A DNA stretch of 64,000 bases from Candidatus Puniceispirillum sp. (GTDB taxonomy: Bacteria; Pseudomonadota; Alphaproteobacteria; Caedimonadales; UBA1908). Positions within the stretch are counted from its first letter, which is position 1. Each line of letters begins with the position of its first letter. Both the position numbers and the translations under genes were made by a program. Positions 17,001-56,953 of the stretch are shown piece by piece. The DNA lies in assembly GCA_013822015.1 (NCBI GenBank), contig PNJU01000002.1, positions 62,001 to 126,000 of the forward strand. The letters run 5' to 3'. The notes beneath the pieces were generated by a model, which ran no database searches, was not told where the DNA came from, and saw only the letters and a program-made list of their open reading frames with translations.

Positions 17001-17684
17001 CTAAGCAATACCAGCAAGTTTAGAGATCATCATTAGCACAATTTCCCGCGGTTTGTGTAGTAACCATGAGATAGGATCGATCTGATTGCCCAACTTTTGC
17101 GTGACAAAGGGCACAAAAAAGATGAGACCAAACAGAATGAACATACCGTAGCGCTCGAGTCTTGCCAGTGGCTGAGCCAAAAGATTGGGCAAAAGGCCCA
17201 CGGCCACACGGCCGCCATCGAGGGGGGGCAAAGGGATCATGTTAAATAGAGCCAACGTCACATTGATCATCACAGACATGGAAAGAGCTTGATGCAAGGA
17301 GTCTGCCCAGCTGCTTGGGAAGAAATCAATCAAGTGAAATGCAAAGGCTGACACAAAGGCCAGAAAGATATTGGTGAGGGGGCCTGCCAAGGCCACACTC
17401 GCCATATCAAGGCGTGGATGGTCAAGACGATCAAAGTTCACGGGCACAGGTTTTGCGTATCCAAAAAGAAACGGCGCGCCTGTGAGCAGCAGAATGCCTG
17501 GAATCAAGATTGTTCCAATCATGTCCACGTGAGCAAAGGGATTGAGGGTCAGGCGACCTGCCCGCAGCGCCGTGTCATCGCCGTAGTGAAGGGCCACATA
17601 GCCGTGGGCCGCTTCGTGGAGGGTGACCGCCAAAATAATGGGCACCCCCATGACGAAGACTTTCAAGATGACATCAAAATCCAC
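17001..17684 (-). CDS. Membrane-embedded site-2-type metalloprotease (M50)
   Basis: 227 residues from GTG 17684 (AAAGGA 8 bases before). Zinc motif H23-E-A-A-H27 in the first hydrophobic segment and N148-M-I-P...D156-G-G in a later one define family M50 (short, PDZ-free type). Four to five membrane segments are visible. Such proteases cut transmembrane substrates; this short subgroup often lies beside scpA/scpB, and here it marks the left edge of the place where those genes would be expected. It is the first gene of the run M50-tatA-tatB-tatC-serS-surE-nlpD. Confidence 0.9.
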   Translation of the reverse strand: MDFDVILKVFVMGVPIILAVTLHEAAHGYVALHYGDDTALRAGRLTLNPFAHVDMIGTILIPGILLLTGAPFLFGYAKPVPVNFDRLDHPRLDMASVALAGPLTNIFLAFVSAFAFHLIDFFPSSWADSLHQALSMSVMINVTLALFNMIPLPPLDGGRVAVGLLPNLLAQPLARLERYGMFILFGLIFFVPFVTQKLGNQIDPISWLLHKPREIVLMMISKLAGIA

Positions 17685-17764: not shown

Positions 17765-19126
17765 TCAAGCTGCAGAGCCTGGATAGGGATGTGGCAAGTG
17801 CTGCGCGTCATGGGGCCATAAAGCGTCCCCAAAGTCCTCTTCATCCGTATCTGTATCATCATCAGAGTCTGGAGCCTCATCTTGGGCTATAGAATCATCT
17901 ACGAAATCCAGTGGACTGTGTCCTGCCGTGTCCATGTGCCCCATAAAGACGGTCATGCGATCTTGCAAAATATCGTTCACAGCTTTTGCAATGGTAAAGG
18001 ACGGCCAAGATCCCATGGGATCTGCGTTTGGCGACCAAAGAGTGCGAAGTTGTGTGGCAAGCTGCGCACCTGGTTCCTGGGCAATGAGGACCCGGTCAAC
18101 AGACCAGAAAAATGCTGTCATCTCCTCAAGACAAAACAGCGTTGAGAGAAGGCTGTCAGATGCATTTTGGATTGCACCAACATCTACCATTGGCCTATCT
18201 CCCACTGCAAAGCGCAGTGAGTGCATCTTGAGTGCGTCCATGCTTCTCTTGTATACATCAGAGTCCATTTCAAGAAGCGAAAGAAATGGCGCAATGTGAC
18301 CCAATTCTTCCTGCGGGTCTAGCCCCTTCTCTAGAACGGCACGTTTCATGTCTGCATAGAGCGCGCGCTGCATATCGCAAAAGCTCTCACTGACAGCCGG
18401 GCGATCAAAGGTCCACAATACATTGCGCATTCCTACAGGGAGCGTGCGAAAGTTCGACCAAAATGCGTCATCCACGCCGTCGACGTTCTGTTGGCGCGAG
18501 AGCTCATCCCACAGCCAGAGGGGCGGGATCATGTCAAAGTCCAATTGCGCGGTCGTCAGACCATCTTTCATAAAATCCATAAGCGCTTCATTGAGAAGGA
18601 GATCGACCCGCCTGCCCCCGAGGTTGCCCAGGTCGTCGGGCGCATCTACATCCACACTAAAAAGCTCCCTAGAGGCCGCTTTCTTTTGGTGGTCCAAAGG
18701 CCTTTCAAAGGGTCCATATCGTTGGTCCAGCTCAGTGTCCAACTCTCGCATTGAATCCTTGGCGGCAGCGCCCCAAAGACGCACCTCTTCTCCAAAGGAC
18801 GACATGAGACCATCCTCAGCCTCTTGCCAGGTCATCCCTTGGACGCCGACCTGCCAATCATCACGCCCCCCTCTTGATTCCCATATGTCATCAAGAAACT
18901 GCCTGGTTGATTCTTGTGTCTTTGCCGTAAGGGCAGCCGCGAGCTGAGTTGCAGTGTCCATGGCCCTCTGGAAGGACTGCTGGGACGGCGCACCTACAAA
19001 ATCCATGCGCGTGCGCCTAAGCTCGTCCTTCAAATCGCCGGGTGATAGGTCAATACTCCCGTGGGCATTTGACACAAATAACAGTGCTATAAAGCACTTA
19101 ACTTTAAATGTTTGGCGTTTCTTCAC
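17765..19126 (-). CDS. Family A exported protein, member A9 (most divergent)
   Basis: 453 residues from GTG 19126, preferred because GGAG lies 10 bases upstream and it gives a proper signal peptide (KKRQTFKVKCFIALLFVSNAHG). A longer reading from ATG 19177 lacks this. It belongs to the nine-member family of this array: the N-terminal DF-APSQQSF block, a central DAFWSNFRTLP, FFWSVDRVLI and LWSPNADPMGSW correspond to blocks of the other members. The central TKGD-HP-W motif has been replaced by WTFDRP, and the last 30 residues form an acidic tail (DSDDDTDTDEEDFGD). Start overlaps the A8 end by 23 bases. Last gene of the array. Function unknown. Confidence 0.75.
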   Translation of the reverse strand: MKKRQTFKVKCFIALLFVSNAHGSIDLSPGDLKDELRRTRMDFVGAPSQQSFQRAMDTATQLAAALTAKTQESTRQFLDDIWESRGGRDDWQVGVQGMTWQEAEDGLMSSFGEEVRLWGAAAKDSMRELDTELDQRYGPFERPLDHQKKAASRELFSVDVDAPDDLGNLGGRRVDLLLNEALMDFMKDGLTTAQLDFDMIPPLWLWDELSRQQNVDGVDDAFWSNFRTLPVGMRNVLWTFDRPAVSESFCDMQRALYADMKRAVLEKGLDPQEELGHIAPFLSLLEMDSDVYKRSMDALKMHSLRFAVGDRPMVDVGAIQNASDSLLSTLFCLEEMTAFFWSVDRVLIAQEPGAQLATQLRTLWSPNADPMGSWPSFTIAKAVNDILQDRMTVFMGHMDTAGHSPLDFVDDSIAQDEAPDSDDDTDTDEEDFGDALWPHDAQHLPHPYPGSAA

Positions 19127-20381
19127 CTTTAAATGACTCCTGATCGTCTTCGATGTGATTACGACCAAGAATTTCACGTATACGCGCCATTGTCAAAATA
19201 GATCTGGGGTGCAGGGCTTCTTTGTACTGTTTCAAAATCCCGGACGCCCCCGTTTCGGTCCCCCAACGCTCAAGAAGCGCGTCGTAAAGAGGTGTAGGTG
19301 ACCTTGCGCCGCCCCCTGTACACTCCCCCATAAGCACACCTACAAGAGCTTTTTCAACCTCCCAGTGTGCATTGAGCGCTTCGCTCGCGCGGCACTGAAA
19401 GCGCGTGTAGGACGCGAGTGCGCTCTCGAAGTCTTCACGCGTTCCAGGTTTGCTCCCTTGGTTACACTCCTGCAAATGAACTTTGAGGCTTGCTAGACTT
19501 CGATCAAAGATATCTTTATCCATGTTCATGAGCTCAATCCAGTTTCCACCCGTTCGCCCAAGGCTTTCCGGAAAATGACTTTCCTGGAGGGCCTTTCTGA
19601 GCGCATTATGACTTATGCAAGAAAACAGAAATCTGCGGTCGACCGCCCCCTCATCTTGGCCACAGATAAAAAGCAAGGGCACCAGATCAAAGGGAAGATC
19701 CTGCGCGCTCAGCCAAAAAAAGTGATCCACACCTTCCAGTGAGGTAAATTCCTTTAATTTCTCCCAGGCAGGCTGGGCAGACGTTATGTCGAAAAGCTGT
19801 TTGCGCACTTGAAAGTGATGAGGCAAATGCCTTCCCACTTCCTCTTCAATAAAACAACCGATAAGGTGCTGGCGCATATGCATCACATGCCTCACAAAAA
19901 AGGAAAAATGCATGTACATCTTCTTATCTTCTTCTGAAAGACTGCGCGGATCACCCAACTCAGCTGTGATTGAGTACCCTCGCTCCAGGGTCATGCCCGG
20001 CACGTAGCGCCCAACAAAGGCGTCGGGATAGAGGGGGCCTGCGACGGCCTTGTCACGCAGGTCCATATAAAGCCCCCCATAGAGCTCTTGAAAGCCCACA
20101 GCCCACTGTGCGTAGTGCGTGCCTGCCGCAGCTTTCTCCTCTTCACAGCTTGCCCGCAAGCCCACAAGTAGATCCCTCGTTGCACCGCACACTTCATCCA
20201 AAGCCTCCACACTTGGATTATGGGCGAACGCTTGGGTCTTTGCCTGAAGGCACGCGGATTCCTCGGCGCATAGGGGGTTTGGGACGAGAGTCTGCGCCCC
20301 TTCCCCGGCAGTGGCGTGGACGCCTTGACCCAGCAATAACGTCAATACGGCCCGTGAAAAAAGAGTTGTTATTTTATGCAT
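19104..20381 (-). CDS. Family A exported protein, member A8
   Basis: 425 residues from ATG 20381, which has a strong GGGAGGAT directly upstream. Signal peptide MHKITTLFSRAVLTLLLGQGVHA. The N-terminal AF-HNPSVEAL block (about 55-80) and the central FFWLSAQDLP (about 210) align with the other family A proteins, and NAHWEVEKALVGVL matches the third block. The GD-HP-W motif and the C-terminal RPREL-MKRRFALT block are poorly kept. Largely helical with several cysteines. Function unknown. 40 bases after A7; its end overlaps A9. Confidence 0.75.
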   Translation of the reverse strand: MHKITTLFSRAVLTLLLGQGVHATAGEGAQTLVPNPLCAEESACLQAKTQAFAHNPSVEALDEVCGATRDLLVGLRASCEEEKAAAGTHYAQWAVGFQELYGGLYMDLRDKAVAGPLYPDAFVGRYVPGMTLERGYSITAELGDPRSLSEEDKKMYMHFSFFVRHVMHMRQHLIGCFIEEEVGRHLPHHFQVRKQLFDITSAQPAWEKLKEFTSLEGVDHFFWLSAQDLPFDLVPLLFICGQDEGAVDRRFLFSCISHNALRKALQESHFPESLGRTGGNWIELMNMDKDIFDRSLASLKVHLQECNQGSKPGTREDFESALASYTRFQCRASEALNAHWEVEKALVGVLMGECTGGGARSPTPLYDALLERWGTETGASGILKQYKEALHPRSILTMARIREILGRNHIEDDQESFKGEETPNI

Positions 20382-20421
20382 ATATATCCTCCCGGTTAGG
20401 TGGGCTCGCGGCCCCAAAGAC

Positions 20422-21558
20422 TTACGTCCTGTCGTTGTTACTCAAAGCAAGGGTCAAGGCAAAACGTTTGATCATAACCTCTTTAAGGCGCTCAAAAAGA
20501 GCATCATTGGCGCGCTGGTTTGAATCTTTTTCAGGCGCTGACCAGACAATCAAAAGGCTTCTTTGACGTCCTTGATGAACGGGCGCGCCCTCCTCATGGT
20601 CACGGGCACCTTCATGAATAACAACACGCTCCCCATCCCAAAAGAGCGATGCAACGGCCTGAAACACAACACTATAATCATTCCAGGTCTTAAATGCCAC
20701 ACGCACATCCATTACATCCTGGCGCGCCTCAACGGCAGCTTTTTGTGCGTCGTGGAGCGCAACAAGAGGCAGAAGCGCCCCTTTCAAATCTTGAGTCTCC
20801 ATGGCAACTATTGCGCGCCAAGAAGGGTCAATCTGCTTTTGAAGCCCTATTGTTTTGAGACGAGGAGACCACTGAGCGTGGGACTTATCTCCATGTGTGA
20901 TCAAAAGCAGTTCTTGAAGGTCTCGCTCAAGATTCCAAAACAGTGTGAGAAAAGGATCCAACAGATCCTTGTGTCTTGCACATTTTTCAAAGTCTTGCCA
21001 CGCTTCGTCTTTGCACCATGCATAGTGTGCCATACGAGCCCTAATAACTTCCGAGTAGAAATTTGTTTGCACGCGGCTCTGGGCTGCAAAGTGAAAAGCG
21101 GTTGAATGTGCCTTGTGGTAGACTGTCATAATCCTTTCAAGGGTTTCTTGCTGGCTGGTAGAAACCCCTTGTGCCGGGGGGAGGCAATGGGCCCGCACAT
21201 CTTTTTTCAAAAGGACCTCGTAATTTTGAATGATATCCTGCACCCGCTCCCGCGCGGCCAAAAGGGATGACGCAACACATGCTTGCCCCACACGCTGTGT
21301 GTCCTGGTCGTTGCAGCTCTCCATGATCTGCAGCAACGTATTCGCGCGGCACAAGCAGCTTTCAAGGTCACCGGGCGCATGACTTTGGTTAAAGGCGCTA
21401 TGTGCCTGTGCAAAACCCTCTCGTGCACCGTGAATCAAAGAGGCTACTTGGGCCCCTCCCTCCTCCATCGCAAGCGCTTCTCCCGGGTCTGAGGCCTGGG
21501 CTATGGGAGTGGCGCAAAAGGCTAGAAATACCCACATGCGCGCGCTTCTCATACCCAT
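20422..21558 (-). CDS. Family A exported protein, member A7
   Basis: 378 residues from ATG 21558 (AAGGAGGGG 5-9 bases upstream); ATG 21552 is an alternative. Signal peptide ends near ATPIAQAS. Family blocks: AHSAFNQSHAPGDL (about 40), the FHFAAQSR helix in the middle, FWNLERDLQELLLITHGDKSHAQW (as two adjoining pieces, about 205-228), YSVVFQAVASLFWDGERVV (about 295) and a final LKEVMIKRFALTLAL. It ends shortly after that block, without the Asn-Pro tail of A5 and A6. Function unknown. Confidence 0.8.
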   Translation of the reverse strand: MGMRSARMWVFLAFCATPIAQASDPGEALAMEEGGAQVASLIHGAREGFAQAHSAFNQSHAPGDLESCLCRANTLLQIMESCNDQDTQRVGQACVASSLLAARERVQDIIQNYEVLLKKDVRAHCLPPAQGVSTSQQETLERIMTVYHKAHSTAFHFAAQSRVQTNFYSEVIRARMAHYAWCKDEAWQDFEKCARHKDLLDPFLTLFWNLERDLQELLLITHGDKSHAQWSPRLKTIGLQKQIDPSWRAIVAMETQDLKGALLPLVALHDAQKAAVEARQDVMDVRVAFKTWNDYSVVFQAVASLFWDGERVVIHEGARDHEEGAPVHQGRQRSLLIVWSAPEKDSNQRANDALFERLKEVMIKRFALTLALSNNDRT

Positions 21559-21648
21559 GGCCCCCTCCTTATGCAATTGCGGGAAATCTCAGACAGGGGT
21601 GTTTGTACATCTGTGTCACACCTCCTCAATGAGGCATATCCCCAGTGG

Positions 21649-21681
21649 AAAAAAAACCATCACAGATGCAACAACACTGTG
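21649..21681 (-). terminator. Intrinsic terminator after A6
   Basis: On the minus strand CACAGTG (from 21681) pairs with CA-CTGTG (to 21661) with one bulged base, followed by ATGG and eight T (21656-21649). It lies just after the A6 stop at 21698, so A7-A9 probably need their own promoter or read-through. Confidence 0.6.
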
Positions 21682-21697
21682 GAGAAGATTTGTGACT

Positions 21698-22927
21698 TTA
21701 AGCATCCTTATCCTCCGGTGTTGCAGGCAAAACGGGCGTCAAATCCACCGTGGCGGCCTCTTCAAGGGCTGCAGGATTCACCGCCCTAGCAACAAACATA
21801 TAGGTCAACGCAAAACGCTTCTTCATAAGCTGTATTAGGGTCAGGTGGATCAGCTCTCTTGGCCTGTCATGGGGAGATTTATCTGAATCGGACCATGCCT
21901 CTAAAAGGGGCATAAAGCGACTTGCAACTGCCTGTGCGCTATTTTCCCTGTCCGCCATGATGGCATCGAGGAGTCCTTTTTCTACAGCCCAGTACAAAGA
22001 TGATGTGGCATTAAAGACCGTATTATAAGCGTCATACACACCGATGGCAGCGTGAGCTTGGTTGAGAGTCTCCTCCCCATCAATGGCTGCGATGCTCTGC
22101 CCATGCACCTCCACAAAGGGTGCAACTTTTTTCTTGAGTGCACCGAGCTCCATGGCGCAAATTGCTCCCCAGGCCTCACAGTTTTGAGCTTCTTCGCCTG
22201 ACATGAGAACGCGTTGCAGCCACTCTGGATGGGCTTTATCGCCGCCTGTCACAATAAGAACATCCTGAAGGGCTTTTGGGAGTGCCCAAAAGTGTTCAAC
22301 AAACTCTTGATCAAATGTGGAAGACCTGCTGGCCTCTTTGAGCTGCGTATGCGCCGTCTGCGCCTCACGCGCAAAAAGTGTCGCCTTTAACCGAGACACA
22401 TTTTCATAAAAACGTTGCTGAGCGATACCCCAACCTGCAAACAGCGTTGGTGGGTCAAAGGCCATACCTTGCTTCAACCCTTCAAGATAAGCAGACAGAA
22501 CACGATTGCGCAGGTCTCGTGCTTCTTCGGTGGGAACACGCCCCATGGGCATGTAGTGCGCTTGTACCGTCCCTTTAAGCAGCTCTAAAGGAACCTGTAA
22601 ATACGCTCTTTCTTGCGCTTGAGCGTCTACACAAAAGCGACTCATCGCAACTGGATCAAAAAGCGTTGTATCCTCTTCATTGCGCACCTGCAGGGCCGTA
22701 AAAAGACCTATAGTGGCATCGAAAGCGATCTTAAGATTTCCAGGTGTTGGATTTTGAATAAAATCCGCCTTTGCAGCCTGAAGCGCGTCTCGTTCCCCCT
22801 GAAAGAGACGTGTGGGCGCGGGCGCCTCTTGTGCGTCCTCAAGGATCGTCACTGGCTGGGCGCTCGCAAATAGGACTGCGTCTGTGTTCAGTGTAAGATA
22901 TATGGCCGTTAAGAGCATTTTTTTCAT
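21698..22927 (-). CDS. Family A exported protein, member A6
   Basis: 409 residues from ATG 22927 (AGGAGG 6 bases upstream). Signal peptide MKKMLLTAIYLTLNTDAVLFASA, mature start near QPVTILE. All family blocks are clear: ADFIQNPTPGNL (about 54), FAGWGIAQQRFYENVSRL (about 165), EHFWALPKALQDVLIVTGGD then HPEW (about 210-235), YNTVFNATSSLYWAVEKGLLD (about 310) and RPRELIHLTLIQLMKKRFALT (two joined helices, about 365-385), then VNPAALEEA. Roughly half its residues match A5 by eye, and the starts share long identical DNA, so A5 and A6 are a young duplicate pair. Function unknown. Confidence 0.85.
   Translation of the reverse strand: MKKMLLTAIYLTLNTDAVLFASAQPVTILEDAQEAPAPTRLFQGERDALQAAKADFIQNPTPGNLKIAFDATIGLFTALQVRNEEDTTLFDPVAMSRFCVDAQAQERAYLQVPLELLKGTVQAHYMPMGRVPTEEARDLRNRVLSAYLEGLKQGMAFDPPTLFAGWGIAQQRFYENVSRLKATLFAREAQTAHTQLKEASRSSTFDQEFVEHFWALPKALQDVLIVTGGDKAHPEWLQRVLMSGEEAQNCEAWGAICAMELGALKKKVAPFVEVHGQSIAAIDGEETLNQAHAAIGVYDAYNTVFNATSSLYWAVEKGLLDAIMADRENSAQAVASRFMPLLEAWSDSDKSPHDRPRELIHLTLIQLMKKRFALTYMFVARAVNPAALEEAATVDLTPVLPATPEDKDA
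22770..22826. repeat. 57-base direct repeat, copy 1 (in A6)
   Basis: Identical to 24223-24279 over all 57 bases. It codes the start of the mature protein (RLFQGERDALQAAKA). A further 26 identical bases cover both start regions (22902-22927 and 24355-24380). Confidence 0.9.
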
Positions 22928-23101
22928 GGCAAACCTCCTTCTGTTTTTTGCTGACGGCAGTGTCAGTAAATGTGAACGCATACACAAACAAAAATGTTCT
23001 TCATGCATACCTTTGGATCAACATAACCGGCTTCACAACATGGGAAAATGCTGATCACTGTATACAGATACCTTTTCCTGCAACGCTGCAAAACCTGTAA
23101 T

Positions 23102-23146
23102 CACAGAGTCCACGGCAAGTTCTGCATTTTTCCGTGGGCGTCTGTG
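23102..23146 (-). terminator. Hairpin after A5
   Basis: Two paired blocks, CACAGA (23102-23107) with TCTGTG (23141-23146) and CCACGG (23110-23115) with CCGTGG (23132-23137), give a 12-pair stem with a small internal loop and a 16-base loop. It lies right after the A5 stop in the 229-base A5-A6 gap. The T-run is weak (GGTTTTGC), so termination is uncertain. Confidence 0.4.
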
Positions 23147-23156
23147 GGCGAAACTT

Positions 23157-24380
23157 TTAGTCTTTTCTGGCCGCTTCCTCAAGAGCGGCAGGATTAAGCT
23201 CTTTTGCAATAAACATATAAGTGAGCGCAAAACGCTTTTTCATAAGCGCCACCAGCGTCAGGTGGATCATGTCCCGAGGACCCATTTTTTCTCCTTTTTC
23301 AGACTTTTGTGATTCGGTCGAATCGTCGGTTTTCTCTGCTTTTCGCCATGACCTTAAAAGGGGCTTAAAAGCGCTTTCACTCTTTGTAACGCCGCTGTTT
23401 TGATCTTTGATGATGGCATCGAATATCGCCTTCTCAGCCGCCCAGTATAGACAGGACACCGCATTAAAAGTGGTATTATAGGTCTCGTACACACCTAAGG
23501 CATAAAAAGCTTGTCTGGCTGTCTCGCTCTCACTAATTTTTGCACTGACTTTCCCATGAGCCTCCACAAGAGAGGCAACCTTTTCCTTGAGCGCATCGCA
23601 CTCCATGGCGCAAATTTCTCTCCAAGCGTCAGCGTGTTGGGCGTCTTCGCCAGACATGAGATGGTGTGGAAGCCACTCTTTGTGCGTCTGATCACCTTTT
23701 GTGATGATAAGTAGATTTTGCAGGGACTGTGGAAGCGCCCAAAAGCGACTCACAAATTCTTGATCGAAATCCGAAGACGCACTGACCTCCTTTAATTGAG
23801 CATTCACCGCCCGCTCCTGACGCTCGCAAAGGATGTTTTTCAAAGCCTGTAGAGTGGCATATGATTTTTGCTGAGCGAGTCCCCAAAAGGCAAAGACAGC
23901 CGTTGGCGCCGTAGACCCCTCTGGTGCCAATTTGTTAAGATACGTGGACAAAACACGCACGCGTTGCCGCTGTGCTTCTTGGGAAGAAGCGCTCTCCACA
24001 TTCATGTAATGCGCTTGGACCGTCTCGCTGAACAACTCCGAAGGAATTTGTAGATGTTCCCTCTCCAATGCTTCGGTGTCCGCAAGAAAGCGACTCACCG
24101 CCACGGGATCAAAGTGCGTTGTATCTTCTTCATTGCACCCATGCATGGCAGCAAAAATGTTTGGGATATTGGCAATGGCTACTCCAAGGGTCTCAGGGGT
24201 CGGATTTGCAATGAAGGCCGCTTTTGCAGCCTGAAGCGCGTCTCGTTCCCCCTGAAAGAGACGTGTGGGCGCGGGCGCCCCTTGTGCGCCTTCAAAAATC
24301 GCCTCGGGCTGGGCGCTGGCAAAGAGCGCCCCATGGCTCCCGAGCGCAAAACACATGGCCGTTAAGAGCATTTTTTTCAT
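23157..24380 (-). CDS. Family A exported protein, member A5
   Basis: 407 residues, ATG 24380 after GGGAGG. Signal peptide MKKMLLTAMCFALGSHGALFASA. Close sister of A6: the same MKKMLLTA start, the same mature head, then AAFIANPTPETL, FAFWGLAQQKSY, SRFWALPQSLQNLLIITKGD, HKEW, YNTTFNAVSCLYWAAEKAIFD and MGPRDMIHLTLVALMKKRFALT, ending in LNPAALEEAARKD. It has a Lys/Glu/Ser insertion (TESQKSEKGEK) before the last block that A6 lacks. The 229 bases between it and A6 hold only a hairpin and no gene. Function unknown. Confidence 0.85.
   Translation of the reverse strand: MKKMLLTAMCFALGSHGALFASAQPEAIFEGAQGAPAPTRLFQGERDALQAAKAAFIANPTPETLGVAIANIPNIFAAMHGCNEEDTTHFDPVAVSRFLADTEALEREHLQIPSELFSETVQAHYMNVESASSQEAQRQRVRVLSTYLNKLAPEGSTAPTAVFAFWGLAQQKSYATLQALKNILCERQERAVNAQLKEVSASSDFDQEFVSRFWALPQSLQNLLIITKGDQTHKEWLPHHLMSGEDAQHADAWREICAMECDALKEKVASLVEAHGKVSAKISESETARQAFYALGVYETYNTTFNAVSCLYWAAEKAIFDAIIKDQNSGVTKSESAFKPLLRSWRKAEKTDDSTESQKSEKGEKMGPRDMIHLTLVALMKKRFALTYMFIAKELNPAALEEAARKD
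24223..24279. repeat. 57-base direct repeat, copy 2 (in A5)
   Basis: Identical to 22770-22826; the surrounding coding sequence is clearly less similar, which suggests either recent duplication with fast divergence elsewhere or local gene conversion. Confidence 0.9.
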
Positions 24381-24474
24381 AGCAAACCTCCCTCTTTTTT
24401 ATGAGAGGTAGCGTAGCAAATTTATATCCGCCTGAATATATGCAAATAAATTACGCTCTTGCTCCCGGGCGGCC

Positions 24475-25599
24475 TTAGGACAAAGGCGCGGGCTCCTGTG
24501 TTTTTTCCCAAGATAGTTGTGTTAAAGCAAAGCGGCGTATCATCACACCGCGCAAGAGCTCCATAATCAGATCTCGTGGTCGTTGGGTAGCGAAACTCAC
24601 ATTTGGCGACCATACGTTTGCAAGGGCGATATAGAGGCTGTCCTGGTCCTGGCTGACGCGCCTTTGTGCATCATCAATGGCCGCGTCGAGAAGCCTTTTT
24701 TCCATGGACCAATAGAAATCGGCAACCATGTCATAGGATTTTTTATAATCATCAAACAAGGCAAAAGCACGCACTGCCCCCTTGTTTATGTCGCTGGCAA
24801 GAAGCGCCCCGTAGCTCTGGGCCAAGACTGGCATATGATTTTGCAGGAGGGATGCCAGATCCTGGGACCTGAAACACGCTTGTATAATATCGTTAAGGGG
24901 CTCGGCACACACAGTCCACCCGGGGTGCCTCGTATCTCCCTTTGTCTTAAGCAGCAGATCACCTAAGGGCTTTTTGAGCATGCGCAGTTTTAAAAGTACC
25001 TCTTTCCCATGGGCGCTTGCCTCAACGCTTGCCTCAAAGGCATTCCAAAGGATCTCCAGGAGCGCGTTATGATGCCTTTGGTGAAGCAGTCCCACACGCT
25101 TGTCTAGATACTCTTGGGCAAGATTTTGTCCTGCAAAAAGCTTTTGCCGTGTGTTGGCGATATCTAAATGACGCTCGCATGCCTGGACGCGCAGAGCCGC
25201 AGCTGCGTCAAGGGTTGAATCCCGGTCAAGACCATAGCGCGCATCGAGGTGTGCTTGAGAGCGCTCTTCTTTCACGCGCATCAGTCCCATCTCTTGCCAA
25301 GCGTAGGCGTCAGACATTGCCTGATTCAGCGTCGGTTCAGGAATTGTTTGCGCCTCCCGCTCGTTGATGTCGTGCATCTGCTTAAGCAAGTCATGCACAT
25401 ACATTACCGCGTCGCCAAAGCGTGCGTGAGTCATCTGTGCGTGAAAGATATCCTGTGCCGCGCGTGCCTTTTGTCTGGCATTTTGAAACGCCCAAATGGG
25501 CGCGTCATCACCGAAACCCGACCCCCAGAGCGCACTGGTTACGTCACTCCAAAGAGCTACAGCCACCACGAGCCAGACCTTTACCATTAGCTTCTTCAT
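24475..25599 (-). CDS. Family A exported protein, member A4
   Basis: 374 residues. ATG 25599 is chosen because AGGA lies 7 bases upstream; ATG 25605 would have none. Signal peptide KKLMVKVWLVVAVALWSDVTSA. Blocks: QDIFHAQMTHARF (about 50), LFAGQNLAQEYLDKRVGLL (about 150), MLKKPLGDLLLKTKGDTRHPGW (about 208-229), FDDYKKSYDMVADFYWSMEKR (about 290) and QRPRDLIMELLRGVMIRRFALT (about 340-360). No tail beyond QEPAPLS. Helical throughout by eye. Lies 45 bases after A3. Function unknown. Confidence 0.82.
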   Translation of the reverse strand: MKKLMVKVWLVVAVALWSDVTSALWGSGFGDDAPIWAFQNARQKARAAQDIFHAQMTHARFGDAVMYVHDLLKQMHDINEREAQTIPEPTLNQAMSDAYAWQEMGLMRVKEERSQAHLDARYGLDRDSTLDAAAALRVQACERHLDIANTRQKLFAGQNLAQEYLDKRVGLLHQRHHNALLEILWNAFEASVEASAHGKEVLLKLRMLKKPLGDLLLKTKGDTRHPGWTVCAEPLNDIIQACFRSQDLASLLQNHMPVLAQSYGALLASDINKGAVRAFALFDDYKKSYDMVADFYWSMEKRLLDAAIDDAQRRVSQDQDSLYIALANVWSPNVSFATQRPRDLIMELLRGVMIRRFALTQLSWEKTQEPAPLS

Positions 25600-25644
25600 T
25601 TTCATATCCTAATCATTTACTAAAAAACAATTTTGCTCACTCTT

Positions 25645-26853
25645 TTAATAGGGCTGTGTGGTGAGAGGCCCGATGAGCACGCTCGTTTGTGGATGGCCCC
25701 CACCAAACCTTTGGGAAGGAAAAAGAAGCGGATGAAACCCTTTAAGAAAATAAAAGTGGGTCAGGCCCTGGCGCCTTGTCATAAGCGCATTGAAGGTTTT
25801 CATCAAAAGCTCACGTGGTCCATCAAGCGTCCCCTCGCGCGCCGTACTCCACGCCAGAGAAAGGCTGTGGTAGGGCGTGCCCACTTCTTCAGTCGTATTT
25901 TCTGGCGCCATGTCCACAAGGGTCTTCTCCACAGCCCAAATGAACGCCGCAACCTCTTCGTAGGATTTCCGGTAGTCGTCAAATATCTCAAAGGCAAGAA
26001 AAGCCCTGCGTACACCTGCAAATTGGTGAACAGCTTCCATGATCGTTGCGTGCCTCTCTTCGAGGTCTCCAAGGACCCTGGCAAGGGGAGCGGGTTCAAC
26101 GCGGCAAATACGGTCCCAGGGTGTGTTTGTGTATGCGCTGGGCGCCGCCATTTCAGGTAGCACACGCCACCGCGGGTGTTCTCTGTCTCCCTTTGTTTCG
26201 ATCAAAAGCGCTTGCAAAGGCTTTGAAAGAGACCAAAATGCGTTTAAAAAGCCGTCATCAGGCATCTGGTGTCTTGTCAAGGTTTCAAGAAGTGCCCAGC
26301 TTTGGGAGGTGTGCAGGTCGTTGTATTGTGTACGCAACCCAGCCACCTGAGTAAAAAGTTTTTCGCGGGCAAGCGTTTGTTTGGCAAATTGAACGGGGGT
26401 GCGGCGCGCGTTATTAACGTGCGTGCAGCACTTAGTTAGTCGCCCGCCTTGACCATCAAGGCATCCCACCAGGTCGTAGTGCCCCTGAAGGGACAACTCA
26501 AGCTCCACCAAAGGAATCTGCTCGGTATATGCTGCATGGGCGTTGCTCACGTCCGACACCAACGTTTCCAAGTCGCGTGCGTCCACAACGGCGCAGTCGA
26601 GGATGTTTTGGGTGTGCATTGTCATAAGCAGAGCGTTACACCCGTGAATACAATTGTACAATGCCGCAGGTGTAGGATCTGTGCAAAAGGCTGCCCTTGC
26701 GCCTTGCAAAAAGGTGCGTACGCTGGTCAAAGACTGCTGGGTTTGTTGCCACAAAGCGCCCTCATCCATGGCGCCCTCCCCCATTTGTGAGGCGCCCGCA
26801 GGGCTATGCCAAGCAGCGCCTAAGCACACAAGAAGCATTGATAATTTTTTCAT
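25645..26853 (-). CDS. Family A exported protein, member A3
   Basis: 402 residues, ATG 26853, 18 bases after A2. Signal peptide MKKLSMLLVCLGAAWHSPAGA. Blocks: AAFCTDPTPAALYNCIHGCNALL (split across two helices, about 54-76), FAKQTLAREKLF (about 150), FWSLSKPLQALLIETKGD then HPRW (about 205-228), FDDYRKSYEEVAAFIWAVEKT (about 300) and GPRELLMKTFNALMTRRQGLTH (about 355). It is cysteine-rich in its first half (Cys at the NCIHGC and KCC sites). An extra C-terminal 30 residues end in LIGPLTTQPY. Function unknown. Confidence 0.82.
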   Translation of the reverse strand: MKKLSMLLVCLGAAWHSPAGASQMGEGAMDEGALWQQTQQSLTSVRTFLQGARAAFCTDPTPAALYNCIHGCNALLMTMHTQNILDCAVVDARDLETLVSDVSNAHAAYTEQIPLVELELSLQGHYDLVGCLDGQGGRLTKCCTHVNNARRTPVQFAKQTLAREKLFTQVAGLRTQYNDLHTSQSWALLETLTRHQMPDDGFLNAFWSLSKPLQALLIETKGDREHPRWRVLPEMAAPSAYTNTPWDRICRVEPAPLARVLGDLEERHATIMEAVHQFAGVRRAFLAFEIFDDYRKSYEEVAAFIWAVEKTLVDMAPENTTEEVGTPYHSLSLAWSTAREGTLDGPRELLMKTFNALMTRRQGLTHFYFLKGFHPLLFPSQRFGGGHPQTSVLIGPLTTQPY

Positions 26854-26871
26854 GGTGTTATGGACCCTTTG

Positions 26872-28029
26872 TTAAGATAAAGAACCAAAAGAAACCTCGG
26901 CAGCCAGGGCTGAGGGATTCACATCCAAAAGATAAAACAACTTTGTCACTGCAAAGCGGTGGACCATAAGGGCGCGCAGGCTTTCCATGATCATTTCTCG
27001 CCTCCACTCACCCATGGGACCGCCCTGATGTGGCCAAATGCCGGGTCGTGTCGGATAAAAACGCCTCCGTTGGTGCGTATCTTCTTCACGCTCATGCAAA
27101 GACTCTTTCAGAAGCTCCTTCTCAACGGACCAAACAAACTTTGATACAGCCGCGTATGAAGCACAGTAATCATCATATTTACCGAAGGCCTGGAGCGCCA
27201 TATTTACGGTTTGAAGGGACGAGAAGTATGCCATGATATGGGCGTGGGCCTGAAGCAAGGATTCAACGCGCCCAGCCAGGTGCTCGTTCCCCATAAAGTA
27301 GAGGCGGTTCCAGGCACGACTATTGACCCTCTCGGCACCAGTATTCTTGATCAAGGTGCTCCACTGAGGATGTTTTTTGTCACCTTTTGTGACCAGGAGA
27401 AGCTCTTTCAAAGGGGGGGTCAACAGGCGGAAATTTAAAAAGAAGAGGTCATCTGTGTGGGCTTCCATCTCCTTGTCTAACGCTTGCCATGCCATGCGCT
27501 CATATCGTGCCACATGTAGCCGTCTCATGCGCCTTATGTCGGCGTGCAATTTCTTTTGGGCAAGGTTTTGACCCGCAAAAAGAAAGGCCCTGTCTTGAGA
27601 CAGCTGAAGATAGTTATCCAATGCCCTTAGGTCTGCCTCATCATTCTGGGAAACATCTGAGAGAAACTGCTGCCGCACAAGGGAACTCACATCACCAACC
27701 CTAAGGGATTTAAGTTTCATCTCTTGTTCAATGGTTTCCTCCTCCTCAAAAACTTGATAGACACTTTGGGAAAAATAACGCGCATCTATCACATTTCCTC
27801 GGTCCATCACGCTTAAGAGCTCTTGAAGGCTTCCCATTGCCTCCTCAAAGGATTGCTGTGAGGGGTTCGCGCAAAACATACGCTGCGCGCACTCAAAGGC
27901 CTCGCGCCTGGCCTGAAAGGGATAGAGTGTGTCTTGGGCTTGATCACCCGCCCCATGCGTGGCCGAAACTGGATAAGACCCACACAAGGTCAAGGTAAAT
28001 CCAAGCATCCTTAGAATCATTTTAGTCAA
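26872..28029 (-). CDS. Family A exported protein, member A2
   Basis: 385 residues from TTG 28029, chosen because AAAGGA is 7 bases upstream; ATG 28020 is 16 bases away from that site but gives nearly the same signal peptide (MILRMLGFTLTLCGSYPVSA). Blocks: RMFCANPSQQSFEEAM (about 50), FLFAGQNLAQKKLHADIRRM (about 168), LTPPLKELLLVTKGDKKHPQW (about 225), YAAVSKFVWSVEKELLKE (about 305) and REMIMESLRALMVHRFAVTKLF (about 350), then DVNPSALAAE. Lies 25 bases after B1. Function unknown. Confidence 0.82.
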   Translation of the reverse strand: MTKMILRMLGFTLTLCGSYPVSATHGAGDQAQDTLYPFQARREAFECAQRMFCANPSQQSFEEAMGSLQELLSVMDRGNVIDARYFSQSVYQVFEEEETIEQEMKLKSLRVGDVSSLVRQQFLSDVSQNDEADLRALDNYLQLSQDRAFLFAGQNLAQKKLHADIRRMRRLHVARYERMAWQALDKEMEAHTDDLFFLNFRLLTPPLKELLLVTKGDKKHPQWSTLIKNTGAERVNSRAWNRLYFMGNEHLAGRVESLLQAHAHIMAYFSSLQTVNMALQAFGKYDDYCASYAAVSKFVWSVEKELLKESLHEREEDTHQRRRFYPTRPGIWPHQGGPMGEWRREMIMESLRALMVHRFAVTKLFYLLDVNPSALAAEVSFGSLS

Positions 28030-28054
28030 AGGGTTATCCTTTCTTTTAAACGGA

Positions 28055-28780
28055 TCATGACAGGTCACATCTTCTTGCAAGCATCATTGCCTGCTGTTTC
28101 AACGTCAGACTGCTGCATTTTGACTTCACGATGCGTTGAAAATAATGGTGCGCAAAGGCGTCATGCCCCAAAATCATCAAGGCTCTGCCAACGCCCAGGG
28201 CGCTCCTCCAGCGCAGGGCGCCTCCGTGGTGCAAGTACACATAGTAGAAGCCCGCAAGGGAAGCTAAAATATCACTCTTGGCGGTAAGTCTTTGTTCAAT
28301 GAGGCTCTCGCTCGTCTGGAAAAGTCCCAGATGTAGGAGACTTTTGGAAGATCTGTTGCACGCACCGAATTGTGTGTAACTTAGTATCTGAGCCTCATCC
28401 AAATCCATGACTGCGCTAAGCTCAGGCGGCAAAACACCTCTTTTAAACCGGCGCTGTGTCAAGGGGGGGCGCGCAGAAGCCTGCACCAGGGAAGGGTCGT
28501 GTGAAGGAAACAGTGTTTCATTGAAGGCAGAGTCTACGTCATGTGCCCATGGGTTTATTGTGTCTTTGTTTAAGGCGCACGCACGCGCATGAAACGATTC
28601 TTCACCCTCAAGGCTGACATCTGGCAGGAGCGTGCCTCCCAACTGATTATTTAAAGCCGCGTCACACAAAAGATCGCTCAAGCATAGCTCATCCTCCCTA
28701 TCCCATGATGCGCTTGATGGCAGCACGTCTAAAAGAAGTTGCATGAGTAGTGCGCAATAGACCAACGGCTTTTTTAGCAC
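28055..28780 (-). CDS. Family B exported protein, member B1
   Basis: 241 residues from GTG 28780 (AAGG 9 bases upstream), giving signal peptide LKKPLVYCALLMQLLLDVLPSSA; GTG 28801 would only add seven residues. The N-terminal half is unremarkable. The C-terminal half matches B2 closely: LSAVMDLDEAQILSYTQF, ILASLAGFYYVYLHHGGALRW, GVGRALMILGHDAFAHHYFQRIV. These are paired helices like TPR or Sel1 units. Unrelated by eye to family A, though always upstream of an A gene (B1 before A2, B2 before A1). Function unknown. Confidence 0.8.
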   Translation of the reverse strand: MLKKPLVYCALLMQLLLDVLPSSASWDREDELCLSDLLCDAALNNQLGGTLLPDVSLEGEESFHARACALNKDTINPWAHDVDSAFNETLFPSHDPSLVQASARPPLTQRRFKRGVLPPELSAVMDLDEAQILSYTQFGACNRSSKSLLHLGLFQTSESLIEQRLTAKSDILASLAGFYYVYLHHGGALRWRSALGVGRALMILGHDAFAHHYFQRIVKSKCSSLTLKQQAMMLARRCDLS

Positions 28781-28901
28781 AATTATCGCCCTTAAGGACA
28801 CCGTGTTAATCAGTTTTCATGTCAAATTGGCATATTCATAGCACTATCCGCACGCCATTGGAAGCCTCTGGAGGAGAAACTAACCGACCCATTGTAAAGC
28901 G

Positions 28902-30104
28902 TCAGGAGCAGGAGGTTGCGCTATTTGGGTGCATCGCGTCACCAGACATATCCCTATGGCAAGACATAGCGGTCAAGGAAAAACGGCGCACAAGCAGTGC
29001 GTCAAGAGCCAGCATGAGGAGCTCCCTTGGCCGCTCATCCACACTGAGCCCCGCATTTGCCCAGAGACTTGAAAGGCCCGTGTGAAAGCTTTCGTTGGAT
29101 TGCAAAGTGAAATTTGGCTGACTGAGCATCGTATCAAGGACGGTCCTCTCCACGGTCCAAAAGAAATCAGAAATTGTCTTGTATGCAGCATAGTATTCCG
29201 CGTGTCGATCAAATGCTTGCATGGCCATCATGGCATCACGGTTTTGCGTACTTTCGACACGGATTTTGTCATAAGTGCTTGCCAGAAAAGCTAGGCTTTG
29301 GGATCTGTGCAATTTGTCCATGGACAAAAGAGCCTGCCACCCACTGGAGTGGAGGGCGCGCCACACCACATTTGCGTGGGGTCCCTCCAAGGCACGCGCC
29401 ATACAAGGGATCCACTGGGGGTGGGTACTTTCGCCATTGGTCACGAGCAAAAGCTCCTGAAGAGGCTTTGGTATTTCCCAAAAATACGACGCAAGATTTT
29501 CCCCAATATTATGAGGTTTCGTAACCTCTTCGAACGCGCTCCAGACTTGATCTGCGTGTTTTGCCTGGCGTTCTTGACGCAAATCATTCACATGGCTCGC
29601 AAGCATTTCATGGACCAGATTCTGGGTAGCAAAGAGTTCACACACGCTGCCAGTCGAATGGATGTAAGAGGCACAGACATGAATGCGGCGCTGTTTTTCC
29701 TCTTCACTAAGCGCGGGTGACCCAAGGAGGTAACGATCGGCAAGATAGCTTGCGCGCACCTCGTGCGGGACCGCTGCCAGCGCCCGCGCTTGGCACTCAC
29801 AGGCAAACTTCGTAAAGCAGTCCACCTCCCCTGCCCAACAAGAACTTATATCGCACTCATTACCACACAACATCATCTTAAAAAGGTCGTTGAGCCGCTC
29901 AATACAATTGTTAAATGTGTGTGAGGTGGGACTTGCGGCAAAGGCATCCCTGGCTGCTTGGAGTTGGTTTTGCGGCTCTTGGAATGGAGAAATCCTGTGG
30001 GCACACACACGTTCTTCTTCAGGACCTTGCGCGTCCTGCAAAGACGTCGCACCTGTCGCTTGCGCGAAAGAAAGAAACAGAGCCAACATAAGTAACTTCT
30101 TCAT
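28902..30104 (-). CDS. Family A exported protein, member A1
   Basis: 400 residues, ATG 30104. Signal peptide MKKLLMLALFLSFAQATGA. Blocks: ARDAFAASPTSHTFNNCIERLN (about 51-72), LFATQNLVHEMLASHVNDLR (about 157), YFWEIPKPLQELLLVTNGE then HPQW (about 207-231), YAAYKTISDFFWTVERTVLD (about 315) and RPRELLMLALDALLVRRFSLT (two helices, about 362-382). Many cysteines in residues 67-105 (NNC, LCGNEC, SSCW, DCF, ACEC), suggesting disulfides after export. The cysteine positions are only partly shared with A3. Function unknown. Confidence 0.82.
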   Translation of the reverse strand: MKKLLMLALFLSFAQATGATSLQDAQGPEEERVCAHRISPFQEPQNQLQAARDAFAASPTSHTFNNCIERLNDLFKMMLCGNECDISSCWAGEVDCFTKFACECQARALAAVPHEVRASYLADRYLLGSPALSEEEKQRRIHVCASYIHSTGSVCELFATQNLVHEMLASHVNDLRQERQAKHADQVWSAFEEVTKPHNIGENLASYFWEIPKPLQELLLVTNGESTHPQWIPCMARALEGPHANVVWRALHSSGWQALLSMDKLHRSQSLAFLASTYDKIRVESTQNRDAMMAMQAFDRHAEYYAAYKTISDFFWTVERTVLDTMLSQPNFTLQSNESFHTGLSSLWANAGLSVDERPRELLMLALDALLVRRFSLTAMSCHRDMSGDAMHPNSATSCS

Positions 30105-30191
30105 AAGCGCACCCCCTGGTTCTTTATCTTTTAGAACGTCACGCCCTTACACGAGAAGATATTTTACACAACTTGTTCAGTATACATAGCC

Positions 30192-30971
30192 TCATTTTAC
30201 CGCTGCGCTAGGGTCTTCTTTTTCATTCAGCCTCGTCAAACGCTTGCGGGCCTCTTCTTTGTAAAGATCAGGCGCCCCTTTTGCGGCAACGACGCGCTCG
30301 AGAAACTCCCGGGCGCTTGCCAGGTGTCCCATGATCATGAGTGTGCGCCCAACGCCGTAACACGCCCGCCACCGCAGACTCCCAGAGTGATTCGCGTAGG
30401 CCGCATAAAAGCCAGCAAGGGCCGCAAGGGCATCGTGTGCTTGAACTTGCTTGCCCGTGAGGAGGCCTTCACTGACGTCACACACGTCTTGATAAAAGGT
30501 GCCCTTTGTGTATGGCGCACATGGGACAAACTGAGCAAATGTCAAAACACCAGCCTGATCTAAAGCCATGACACTGGCAAGATCTTCAGGGGTGTTCGCT
30601 TTGGTAAGGTGACTTGCTCTTCTTGGATGCTTGAGGGGCGTATGCGAGGCCGGACGCGTCGTATCTTCTGGTGCGCGCCTCTTGGCGCTTCTCTTTTTGG
30701 TAGAAGCAAGATGCACATACTGGGGAAAGTATGGTGGATGGGCGGCCTCCCGTTTTACGTGCACATCCTCGCACAGGTCAGGAACACTAACAGCGGGTAA
30801 GCTCAAGGGTGAGTCAACGTCATAATAAGGGCGCTCTTTATAAAAAACCGGCCTGTAAAGACAGGGATCGTTCAGCACGCGCGCGAAGATTTTCTGTTCC
30901 AAAGGATCTTCTAAGCTTGAGGCAATGGCAGGCTGGCAGAACAGGAGTGACAAGACAAAATGTAATCGCAT
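30192..30971 (-). CDS. Family B exported protein, member B2
   Basis: 259 residues, ATG 30971, first gene of the array in the direction of transcription. Short signal peptide MRLHFVLSLLFCQPAIASS. A basic middle region (KKRSAKRRAPEDTTR, about 93-107) is followed by the family B core: LASVMALDQAGVLTFAQF, DALAALAGFYAAYANHSGSLRW, GVGRTLMIMGHLASAREFLERVV, two or three helical hairpins as in B1. B1 lacks the basic patch. A promoter with paired TTGACA boxes precedes it. Function unknown. Confidence 0.8.
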   Translation of the reverse strand: MRLHFVLSLLFCQPAIASSLEDPLEQKIFARVLNDPCLYRPVFYKERPYYDVDSPLSLPAVSVPDLCEDVHVKREAAHPPYFPQYVHLASTKKRSAKRRAPEDTTRPASHTPLKHPRRASHLTKANTPEDLASVMALDQAGVLTFAQFVPCAPYTKGTFYQDVCDVSEGLLTGKQVQAHDALAALAGFYAAYANHSGSLRWRACYGVGRTLMIMGHLASAREFLERVVAAKGAPDLYKEEARKRLTRLNEKEDPSAAVK

Positions 30972-31055: not shown

Positions 31056-31946
31056 TTACTGGGGCAAGACCTGCACTTGGACACCCATCTTCTCCATACG
31101 TCTTTTTAAATCATGGGCTTTTTCGGGAATCATGCCGGCCAGGCGTACATGATACTTCACACCAACACCGGTCCCATGATCAACGCGCACGTATTGGGGC
31201 GTCTGGGTTGCGATGAGGGGACCCACCTGGCGCAAGGTCTCCTGCCACGCCGTCTTTGCTTCGTCTTGAGTCGCCGCAGATGCCACCTCAAGGGCTAGCA
31301 TTTTTCCTTGAGAGACGTGAACATTATTGCCTTCAAGGGGGATGTTCACGCGCTTAAGCTGGGGTATAGCGTTTTGTTTTTCTTGCGCCACATGGAGCGT
31401 TGCCTTGGAGGATCCTGCCTGATGAACGGGAGCTTTTTCCTCAAAAAAGCCTTCGTCGCTTTCCGCGAAGGGGTCCGTCTGCGCCTCTCCTTCCGCAAAG
31501 GGGGACGAGACGTCCTGGGCCGCCTCAAGGTCTTTGGATGTCAAGGGGGACTGGGCAAGGGCTTTGACAAAATCGTCTGGAAGCGCTGGTGCTGACTCCA
31601 CGGGATCCTGAGGAACCTCGCGCAGACGCACCTCATCACTGGCCACACCCTGCCCCGTCAACTGATCGTAAATTGTTTTATCAGTATTGATAGTGTCTGT
31701 GTCTTGGGCACCTTGGGGGCGCACCTTATAGGGACCTTCTGGCGCCGCCACAAGGGGGATCTCTCCGCCTGATGAGAAAGACCAACCCATCCAAAAGTAA
31801 GCCGCTCCACCCAACAGCAAACTCGCACCTGCCACAAGAGCTGGCACAAGAAAACGTGTGCGACGCGGGGCTGACTGGGGCAACGGCACCCGCAGCTCAC
31901 GCCACATTTCTTGGGGTGGATAAGGGGTTTTCCTTTGTGGCTGCAT
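31056..31946 (-). CDS. SPOR-domain membrane protein
   Basis: 296 residues. Short cytoplasmic head, one membrane helix (about 32-55, FLVPALVAGASLLLGGAAYFW), an acidic, unstructured periplasmic linker (about 56-205) and a C-terminal SPOR domain (about 215-296, ending in LKRRMEKMGVQVQVLP). SPOR domains bind denuded septal peptidoglycan, so a role in cell division, as for FtsN-like proteins, is likely. The start codon lies in the argS stop (1-base overlap at 31946). argS followed by a SPOR protein is a standard alphaproteobacterial pair; after it one normally meets nagZ, scpA and scpB, which are missing here. Confidence 0.88.
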   Translation of the reverse strand: MQPQRKTPYPPQEMWRELRVPLPQSAPRRTRFLVPALVAGASLLLGGAAYFWMGWSFSSGGEIPLVAAPEGPYKVRPQGAQDTDTINTDKTIYDQLTGQGVASDEVRLREVPQDPVESAPALPDDFVKALAQSPLTSKDLEAAQDVSSPFAEGEAQTDPFAESDEGFFEEKAPVHQAGSSKATLHVAQEKQNAIPQLKRVNIPLEGNNVHVSQGKMLALEVASAATQDEAKTAWQETLRQVGPLIATQTPQYVRVDHGTGVGVKYHVRLAGMIPEKAHDLKRRMEKMGVQVQVLPQ

Positions 31947-55843: not shown

Positions 55844-56953
55844 TTAAGCGTGAACCGACGCGATGGGCGTAGAGCGAATGGGACGGCTCAGTATTCCTGC
55901 AAGAGACTCAATTTTTTCTTGGTTTTCATTAACGAAACCCCTTGCAACCTCAAGCAGTGCCGCCACATGCTCTGGCGTCGTTTTATCCAGCGCCCCCAAT
56001 TTTTCTGGGATATCTGGTTGAAGCCTGAAATAACGCTCACTGACGCCGATAATACTTCCGCTGCTTGAAGATGAAACGAGTCTGCGCATCTGATCGTCCA
56101 CAAGGCTCGCAACCCCGTTAATTCCCATGGTAACAATGGGTTTGATCCATGTTGTGGCACCCGCATCCTTCATGCGCTCATCATCAAGGGGCGCACTGAT
56201 CTTCCCTGTCCCCAAAGAGACAAGAAGCACATCTTGAGCTCTTGGATATATTTCCTTGGCAAGGGAGTACCCAACCAGGGATGGGTTATTTTGCACAACG
56301 CCGCCATCAACAACACAACACTCCTGCCCATAAAAACTCTCCATGCGCTTAGGAGGGAAGTAGGTTGGTGCACTAGATGTTCCGATGGCCACGTCCTTCA
56401 TGAGGAAATTCTCGCCAGGGTCCAATTTTGCCCGCTGACTTTCGAACACAATCGGTGCGTCATGGCGTATGTCAAATGCGGTCACGGCCACAGGAACAAG
56501 GGAGCTGCTTAGCGCTGTAGAGCCAAGGAGCTCCACGGACAAGCTCTCAAGTCCTTTTGAGCTGTACCTAGGGCGCAGGAGCCCTCCAAAACTAAAATAG
56601 TTTTTGTGTTTACTACCGAAGATTTCTTCACCTCTTGTTGTGTAAAGGGCGAGAAGCTCATCGGCTGTATAGCGCGGACCCGTACCATCATCGGCAGGTG
56701 CAGACAGTGAAAGCGCGATAATTCCTCCCGTTGAGGTTCCCGTGATCACATCAAACGACTCGCTAATTGGTTTACCTGTTCTCCTTTCAATTTCACTTAA
56801 AATCGTCAGTGGAATAACACCGCGCACCCCTCCGCCATCAATACTTAAGATGCGCACTAAGCGGGGCGCATCATCCTCTTGGGCGGATCCGAATACCGCT
56901 TGCGAAGCAAATACAAGAGAAATAAGAAACAAAGATGTTGAAATAATTATCAT
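55844..56953 (-). CDS. Exported patatin-like phospholipase
   Basis: 369 residues, ATG 56953 after GGAGG. Signal peptide 1-22 (ISLVFASQAVFGSA). Patatin domain: oxyanion loop DGGGVRG at 39-45, nucleophile S74 in GTSTG, catalytic D216 in DGG. All catalytic parts are intact, so an active phospholipase A is expected. Export places it in the periplasm or outside; related rickettsial patatins act on host membranes, so the same may hold here (inference). It lies upstream of fadD on the same strand, so lipid release and breakdown are adjacent. Confidence 0.9.
   Translation of the reverse strand: MIIISTSLFLISLVFASQAVFGSAQEDDAPRLVRILSIDGGGVRGVIPLTILSEIERRTGKPISESFDVITGTSTGGIIALSLSAPADDGTGPRYTADELLALYTTRGEEIFGSKHKNYFSFGGLLRPRYSSKGLESLSVELLGSTALSSSLVPVAVTAFDIRHDAPIVFESQRAKLDPGENFLMKDVAIGTSSAPTYFPPKRMESFYGQECCVVDGGVVQNNPSLVGYSLAKEIYPRAQDVLLVSLGTGKISAPLDDERMKDAGATTWIKPIVTMGINGVASLVDDQMRRLVSSSSSGSIIGVSERYFRLQPDIPEKLGALDKTTPEHVAALLEVARGFVNENQEKIESLAGILSRPIRSTPIASVHA

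Follow-up and report, generated by a model that had tools for sequence, protein, structure and literature searches.

A tandem array of predicted exported, helical proteins in Candidatus Puniceispirillum sp.

Lineage-specific tandem expansion of exported proteins has been described in intracellular bacteria. Effector families of the Parachlamydiaceae expanded in this way, with ratios of nonsynonymous to synonymous substitution rates (dN/dS) of 0.29-0.63 and, in the passages on them, without support for positive selection (PMC4209131). The periplasmic protein PRP1 of Holospora is described, where it is treated, as exiting the bacterium inside the host nucleus (PMC9866348), and a review of the Holosporales considers type VI secretion the likely host-facing route of those bacteria (PMC11909080). 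Beyond the well-studied pathogens, the means by which intracellular bacteria communicate with their hosts are mostly obscure. Here, a stretch of 64,000 nt from Candidatus Puniceispirillum sp. (GCA_013822015.1, contig PNJU01000002.1, 62,001-126,000 of the forward strand; "the window") was analysed, in which positions 17765-30971 are occupied by eleven minus-strand open reading frames (ORFs) of the window's ORF list, nine of a family A (A1 to A9) and two of a family B (B1 and B2). Family A is read as a genus-restricted set of Sec-exported, soluble, all-helical proteins of an intracellular alphaproteobacterium, which would act at the bacterium-host interface and grow or shrink in number by tandem duplication and decay; the probability of this reading was put at about 0.5.

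Family A as a protein family

A3 to A9 are paralogues. All 21 pairs were matched by BLASTP at E-values (E) of 1.7e-10 or better, and their alignment contains 18 invariant columns, far beyond chance. An earlier note on the window had credited all nine with the same ordered blocks; A1 and A2 lack most of those quoted and are distant members. They matched each other by BLASTP at E 3e-8. A profile built from A3 to A9 gave 15.0 bits for A1 and 22.5 bits for A2, and no more than 5.3 bits for any of 1300 shuffled sequences; from these scores the assignment to family A is judged good for A2 and fair for A1. Repeated tandem duplication, also proposed earlier, is borne out by the paralogy together with the tandem gene order. 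Profile comparison of three non-overlapping segment pairs detected no internal repeats in A (best E 0.058). A profile search of the whole genome returned the nine array genes and one further match, on contig C12 at E 0.475, which was not counted.

Among the nine A proteins and ten ORFs of two congeners, no Pfam family was found at the cut-off; NCBIfam gave no match to family A at its cut-off, PADLOC gave none, and PDB sequences gave nothing below E 0.03. PHROGs matched one of 18 members, at E 0.0024 and to a family without function. Sub-threshold matches were rejected as chance, among them prefoldin beta for A8 (E 0.0021; 18 bits with a cut-off of 73 bits) and CENP-T for the 18-row profile (E 0.031, sub-threshold). 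Viral contigs searched with an alignment of A4 and A5 gave no match. Neither did public genomes searched with the same alignment, and a congener pair matched only the two congeners there, in a collection from which records of the query's own genome may be omitted. As far as these searches reach, family A appears to be undescribed and to contain no recognisable known domain. The earlier phrase "two unrecognised families" holds for A and only in part for B, which is probably TPR-like; "undescribed system" overstates what the sequence shows, a family without earlier description arranged in an operon-like array.

The eleven array proteins all start with a positive, hydrophobic segment with an A-x-A-like end, in agreement with the signal peptides claimed before (signal peptides were judged by eye, on these features, and by hydropathy). 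Outside the N-terminus of A1 to A9, no 19-residue segment had a mean hydropathy of 1.6 or more, the highest value being 1.52, in A9.

A5 was modelled by AlphaFold2 from 18 rows (mean predicted local distance difference test score, pLDDT, 86.2; predicted template modelling score, pTM, 0.82), and a short congener member from 9 rows (mean pLDDT 84.2, pTM 0.78); both models consist of helices only. The short protein has two long consecutive helices (123-163 and 167-203), and A5 has long helices at 159-202 and 286-329 with shorter helices between them. Residues 184-280 of A5 (about 97), within which the FW-LPKPLQ-LL-TKGD-HP-W block of the earlier note falls, have no counterpart in the congeners in the 18-row alignment; the alignment and the separate models suggest the gain or loss of a block of this size between the two long helices. 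Three residues, F56, W313 and W345 (A5 numbering), are unchanged across all 18 rows, the two tryptophans lying in or beside the C-terminal long helix. The 100-degree periodicity of conserved hydrophobicity was 7.29, above the highest value from 300 column shuffles, 6.86. Within the 1000 chains ranked best by Foldseek, the best Z values (7.5 and 8.1) were among unrelated helical bundles, a result that would neither place the fold of family A nor make it new; no new fold is claimed.

Distribution, copy history and evolutionary rate

The window genome (G000) was compared with its congeners G001 and G002 (the public metagenome-assembled genomes MCMED-G24 and CoA8N_C25) and with other genomes of the order, among them G003 and G008. 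All 11 genomes of the order, and none of 14 controls, had an ATP/ADP translocase (PF03219) above the cut-off; intracellular life is therefore likely, as the earlier note had supposed in speaking of a likely symbiont. From the translocase and passages of the Holosporales review (PMC11909080), a Holosporales-like placement of the order may be guessed.

With a profile of the window A proteins only, two of 58 relatives matched, the window genome and G001 (E 6.5e-4), where the match falls within a set of shorter exported ORFs. Over the C-terminal 78 columns, the window and congener sets matched in a profile-profile comparison with a probability of 93% and E 3e-7; the N-terminal part of A was matched as well, by individual congener proteins. 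Scores of the eleven congener ORFs against the seven-member profile were 15.1-29.5 bits for nine, 6.5 bits for a broken one and 1.0 bit for the ORF g1_5. When both A sets were used as query, family A was found in three of the 11 genomes of the order, namely those of the window's genus, and in none of the eight outside it; an own-genome match at C1:114659 (E 0.006) was left uncounted. In 386 genomes sampled from the class it was found in two, the window genome and G001, with at most four candidates scored per genome, so that distant members may be missed. A profile search of other genomes had been advised in the earlier note, and its outcome is a family confined, among the genomes searched, to the genus.

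The site of the array, between a SPOR-like and an M50 protease gene, is without the array in all four of the other genomes of the order in which it was located. In G001 and G002 the M50 gene follows the SPOR-like gene after 12 bp, with no A copy at the site; the array cannot fit in G003 or G008, because the whole argS-tatC interval of the former (2.3 kb) and the argS-M50 interval of the latter (1.1 kb) are too short. The shorter A members of G001 flank accD on both sides, up to thyX. Those of G002 are found in the accD-thyX part, and further copies are not visible there because the contig begins 113 bp before the first copy. In the window genome accD is elsewhere, with no A genes around it; nearby (L087:12742-13786), an ORF that we take to be RES-like and then a small exported ORF stand where the congeners carry family A. 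Among the A members of G001 stand two more duplicated pairs of exported ORFs, of types other than A (L029:7385-13496; G001:C1:398885-404996).

The tree and the 18-row alignment were made with g1_5 and g1_7 left out. Three G001-G002 orthologue pairs and one G001 pair were strongly supported. The seven core window copies grouped at 89/89, below the mark for strong support, and a group of all nine was present in only 49% of bootstrap trees, owing to the very long branches of A1 and A2. As judged from the tree, a separate expansion in the window lineage is well supported for the core copies and not supported for A1 and A2. One copy of G001 is broken, split over two frames (L060:3318-4057); at the same place in G002 only about 100 residues of a copy remain (L061:5444-5749). 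The largely separate copy histories and the broken copy indicate that family A is subject to birth-and-death evolution.

Amino-acid identities between the congener A orthologues were 56, 61 and 74%, and those of nine flanking or syntenic genes 87-97%. Pairwise dN/dS was 0.12-0.30 for six A pairs, 0.016-0.091 for the nine genes and 0.21 for another exported protein of the same locus; in 60-codon windows it was at most 0.57 in the 39 of 54 that gave a finite value. These identities and ratios suggest a fast-changing family under purifying selection and do not bear out the diversifying selection proposed before. Since dS is near saturation in several pairs and differs between loci, weak site-level positive selection may persist.

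Array layout, family B and neighbouring genes

The eleven tandem ORFs were recovered at the coordinates given before, on the minus strand (Table 1). The A proteins are 376-470 residues long from the first possible start codon and not 374-453, a discrepancy that arises from a different choice of start codon; the true start of A1 is probably internal, because its ORF overlaps that of A2. In transcriptional order, the SPOR-like gene is followed by B2, A9, B1, A8, A7, A6, A5, A4, A3, A2, A1 and the M50 protease gene, and the 12 gaps between neighbours are -74 to +148 bp; a single operon is plausible. Promoter- and terminator-like consensus sites showed no excess in the array over the shuffled rate (12 vs 11.8 and 23 vs 21.7, respectively). 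A4 and A5 (54-56% identical) are the youngest-looking pair. The name SPOR-like is our assumption, from the argS neighbourhood and the look of the C-terminus.

Table 1. Features of the array and its boundaries (window positions; aa, amino acids)
Feature	Position	Strand	Description	Match or model
M50	17001..17684	-	Peptidase_M50 family membrane protease; downstream boundary	PF02163, E 1.5e-11
A1	17765..19177	-	Distant family A member, 470 aa from first GTG; overlaps A2 by 74 bp	
A2	19104..20417	-	Distant family A member, 437 aa	22.5 bits, seven-member profile, alignment over 292 columns
A3	20422..21576	-	Family A, 384 aa	
A4	21698..23008	-	Family A, 436 aa	
A5	23157..24380	-	Family A, 407 aa	AlphaFold2 model all-helical
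A6	24475..25605	-	Family A, 376 aa	
A7	25645..26853	-	Family A, 402 aa	
A8	26872..28080	-	Family A, 402 aa; 26-bp overlap with B1	
B1	28055..28801	-	Family B, predicted exported protein, 248 aa; C-terminal part common to B2	
A9	28902..30104	-	Family A, 400 aa	
B2	30192..30971	-	Family B, predicted exported protein, 259 aa; TPR-like C-terminus (residues 177-233)	TPR_19, below Pfam cut-off
SPOR-like	31056..31946	-	Presumed SPOR-like envelope protein; upstream boundary	No Pfam match at E 0.1

The C-terminal parts of B1 and B2 are 40% identical over 114 residues, and this part recurs in the window genome in a row of six ORFs on contig C7 and in a single ORF of C10. Six of these paralogues were scanned; three had TPR matches at E up to 0.1, and one of them passed the Pfam cut-off, for TPR_19 (25.6 vs 25 bits). 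B1 had no Pfam match at E up to 1, and PDB sequences searched with B gave no match. Family B is probably TPR-like, to judge from these matches. It resembles TPR proteins (TPR_19, PF14559) in its C-terminal helical hairpin and differs from them in its long low-complexity stretch, which just one or two repeats follow, in its predicted export and in that the window members are below the cut-off.

On C7, six B-like exported ORFs with a low-complexity middle and a TPR-like end stand in a row, with one different ORF between, beside an obgE-like gene (L027:5383-13516; G000:C7:57383-65516). The same contig carries five tandem ORFs of 513-981 residues with signal-like N-termini (L095:661-10465; G000:C7:34661-44465). 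Their N-terminal unit is repeated, with three copies in the longest, and their common C-terminus is rich in G, S, H and W. In the three of these five proteins that were scanned, nothing in Pfam reached the cut-off, and a suspected HicA-like C-terminus gained no match; by its sequences the group looks like a third expanded exported family. Counting these two additional rows, both of exported orphan proteins, the genome would make a habit of multiplying exported genes in tandem. A patatin-like phospholipase gene is found elsewhere in the window (55844-56953; PF01734, E 2.7e-23).

Role of family A and comparison with described systems

The most likely function of family A is that of soluble exported binding proteins facing the host. 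The proteins would fold in the periplasm as helical bundles, the N-terminal helices packing on the C-terminal long helix that bears the conserved F-W-x-x-E and W, and would act there or be released to bind partners at the bacterium-host interface. Every copy might offer a different binding surface, for which the block that the window lineage has in addition, between its long helices, is a candidate, and the B proteins, which are encoded in the same operon-like unit and combine a linker with a TPR-like hairpin, could serve as adaptors.

Several observations weigh against this role. Every one of the 11 genomes of the order has secretins, as do 6 of the 14 controls; of the three loci inspected in the window genome, one belongs to a Tad/Flp-type pilus and two had no assignment. 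No type II secretion system was identified at these loci, and export past the outer membrane is therefore unexplained; secretion, host contact and partners are inferred throughout. At E 0.01 neither congener had a match to family B, which is therefore not a required partner of A. The dN/dS values carry no sign of an arms race, and g1_5, one of eight candidate ORFs of G001, did not score above shuffles.

Unlikely, and still the strongest of the rival explanations, is that the A proteins are periplasmic or envelope-maintenance helical proteins, structural or chaperone-like, which stay in the periplasm and vary by drift with no host target. Purifying selection, the envelope genes on both sides of the array (SPOR-like and M50) and the lack of an identified route past the outer membrane all fit it, and the authors of the Chlamydiae study, in the passages on comparable expansions, invoke genomic drift (PMC4209131). 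A maintenance role is harder to reconcile with a family missing from the eight genomes of the order outside the genus, with congeners that differ in copy number, site and length of A, and with two congeners that have no A copy where the window genome has its array. A more elaborate version of the host-facing role is doubtful: family A as a new class of variable host-binders, with a conserved helical stalk in which the N-terminal helices pack on the two long ones, an interchangeable block of about 97 residues between the long helices that the congeners lack and TPR-like B adaptors, all multiplied in tandem to give each bacterium a private set of binders displayed or released to its host.

It is improbable that a mobile element or a phage brought the array, as a cassette, to its place between the SPOR-like and M50 genes. 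Four relatives have the site without the array, locations differ between lineages, and the G+C content of the array (49-54%) is slightly below that of most of the 19 other genes measured (48-58.5%); yet the two ranges overlap, no integrase, transposase or tRNA was seen beside the array, and the searches of PHROGs and viral contigs yielded only the one weak match given above. Least probable of all is an action on host membranes, with the A proteins as helical pore formers or membrane binders.

As a small group of predicted exported proteins for which good structural models exist, the array lends itself to experiment, and the separate expansion of the same family at different places in two lineages gives a natural comparison for finding binding partners.

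Of the described systems, the PEX/NEX families of the Parachlamydiaceae share with family A an intracellular bacterium, tandem arrays, species-specific copies, birth-and-death evolution and fast change at dN/dS below 1 (PMC4209131). Tandem lineage-specific copies, birth and death, and purifying selection, by which those families are marked, were all found in family A. As described in the passages on them, PEX/NEX proteins have F-box or BTB-box domains and gave a positive result in a type III secretion assay (PMC4209131), whereas the A proteins, known from sequence alone, have predicted Sec-type signals; no F-box, BTB-box or other ubiquitination-related domain was found at the Pfam cut-off in the nine A proteins and ten congener ORFs. 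PRP1 of Holospora (63 kDa) comes close to the role proposed for the A proteins, being a periplasmic protein of an intracellular alphaproteobacterium that leaves the bacterium during infection and, in the account of it, has no assigned export route; it differs, by its description there, in having a DNA-binding domain and in not being presented as a tandem family (PMC9866348). The lineage-specific growth of exported protein families in tandem has precedents among intracellular bacteria; family A itself appears to have none.

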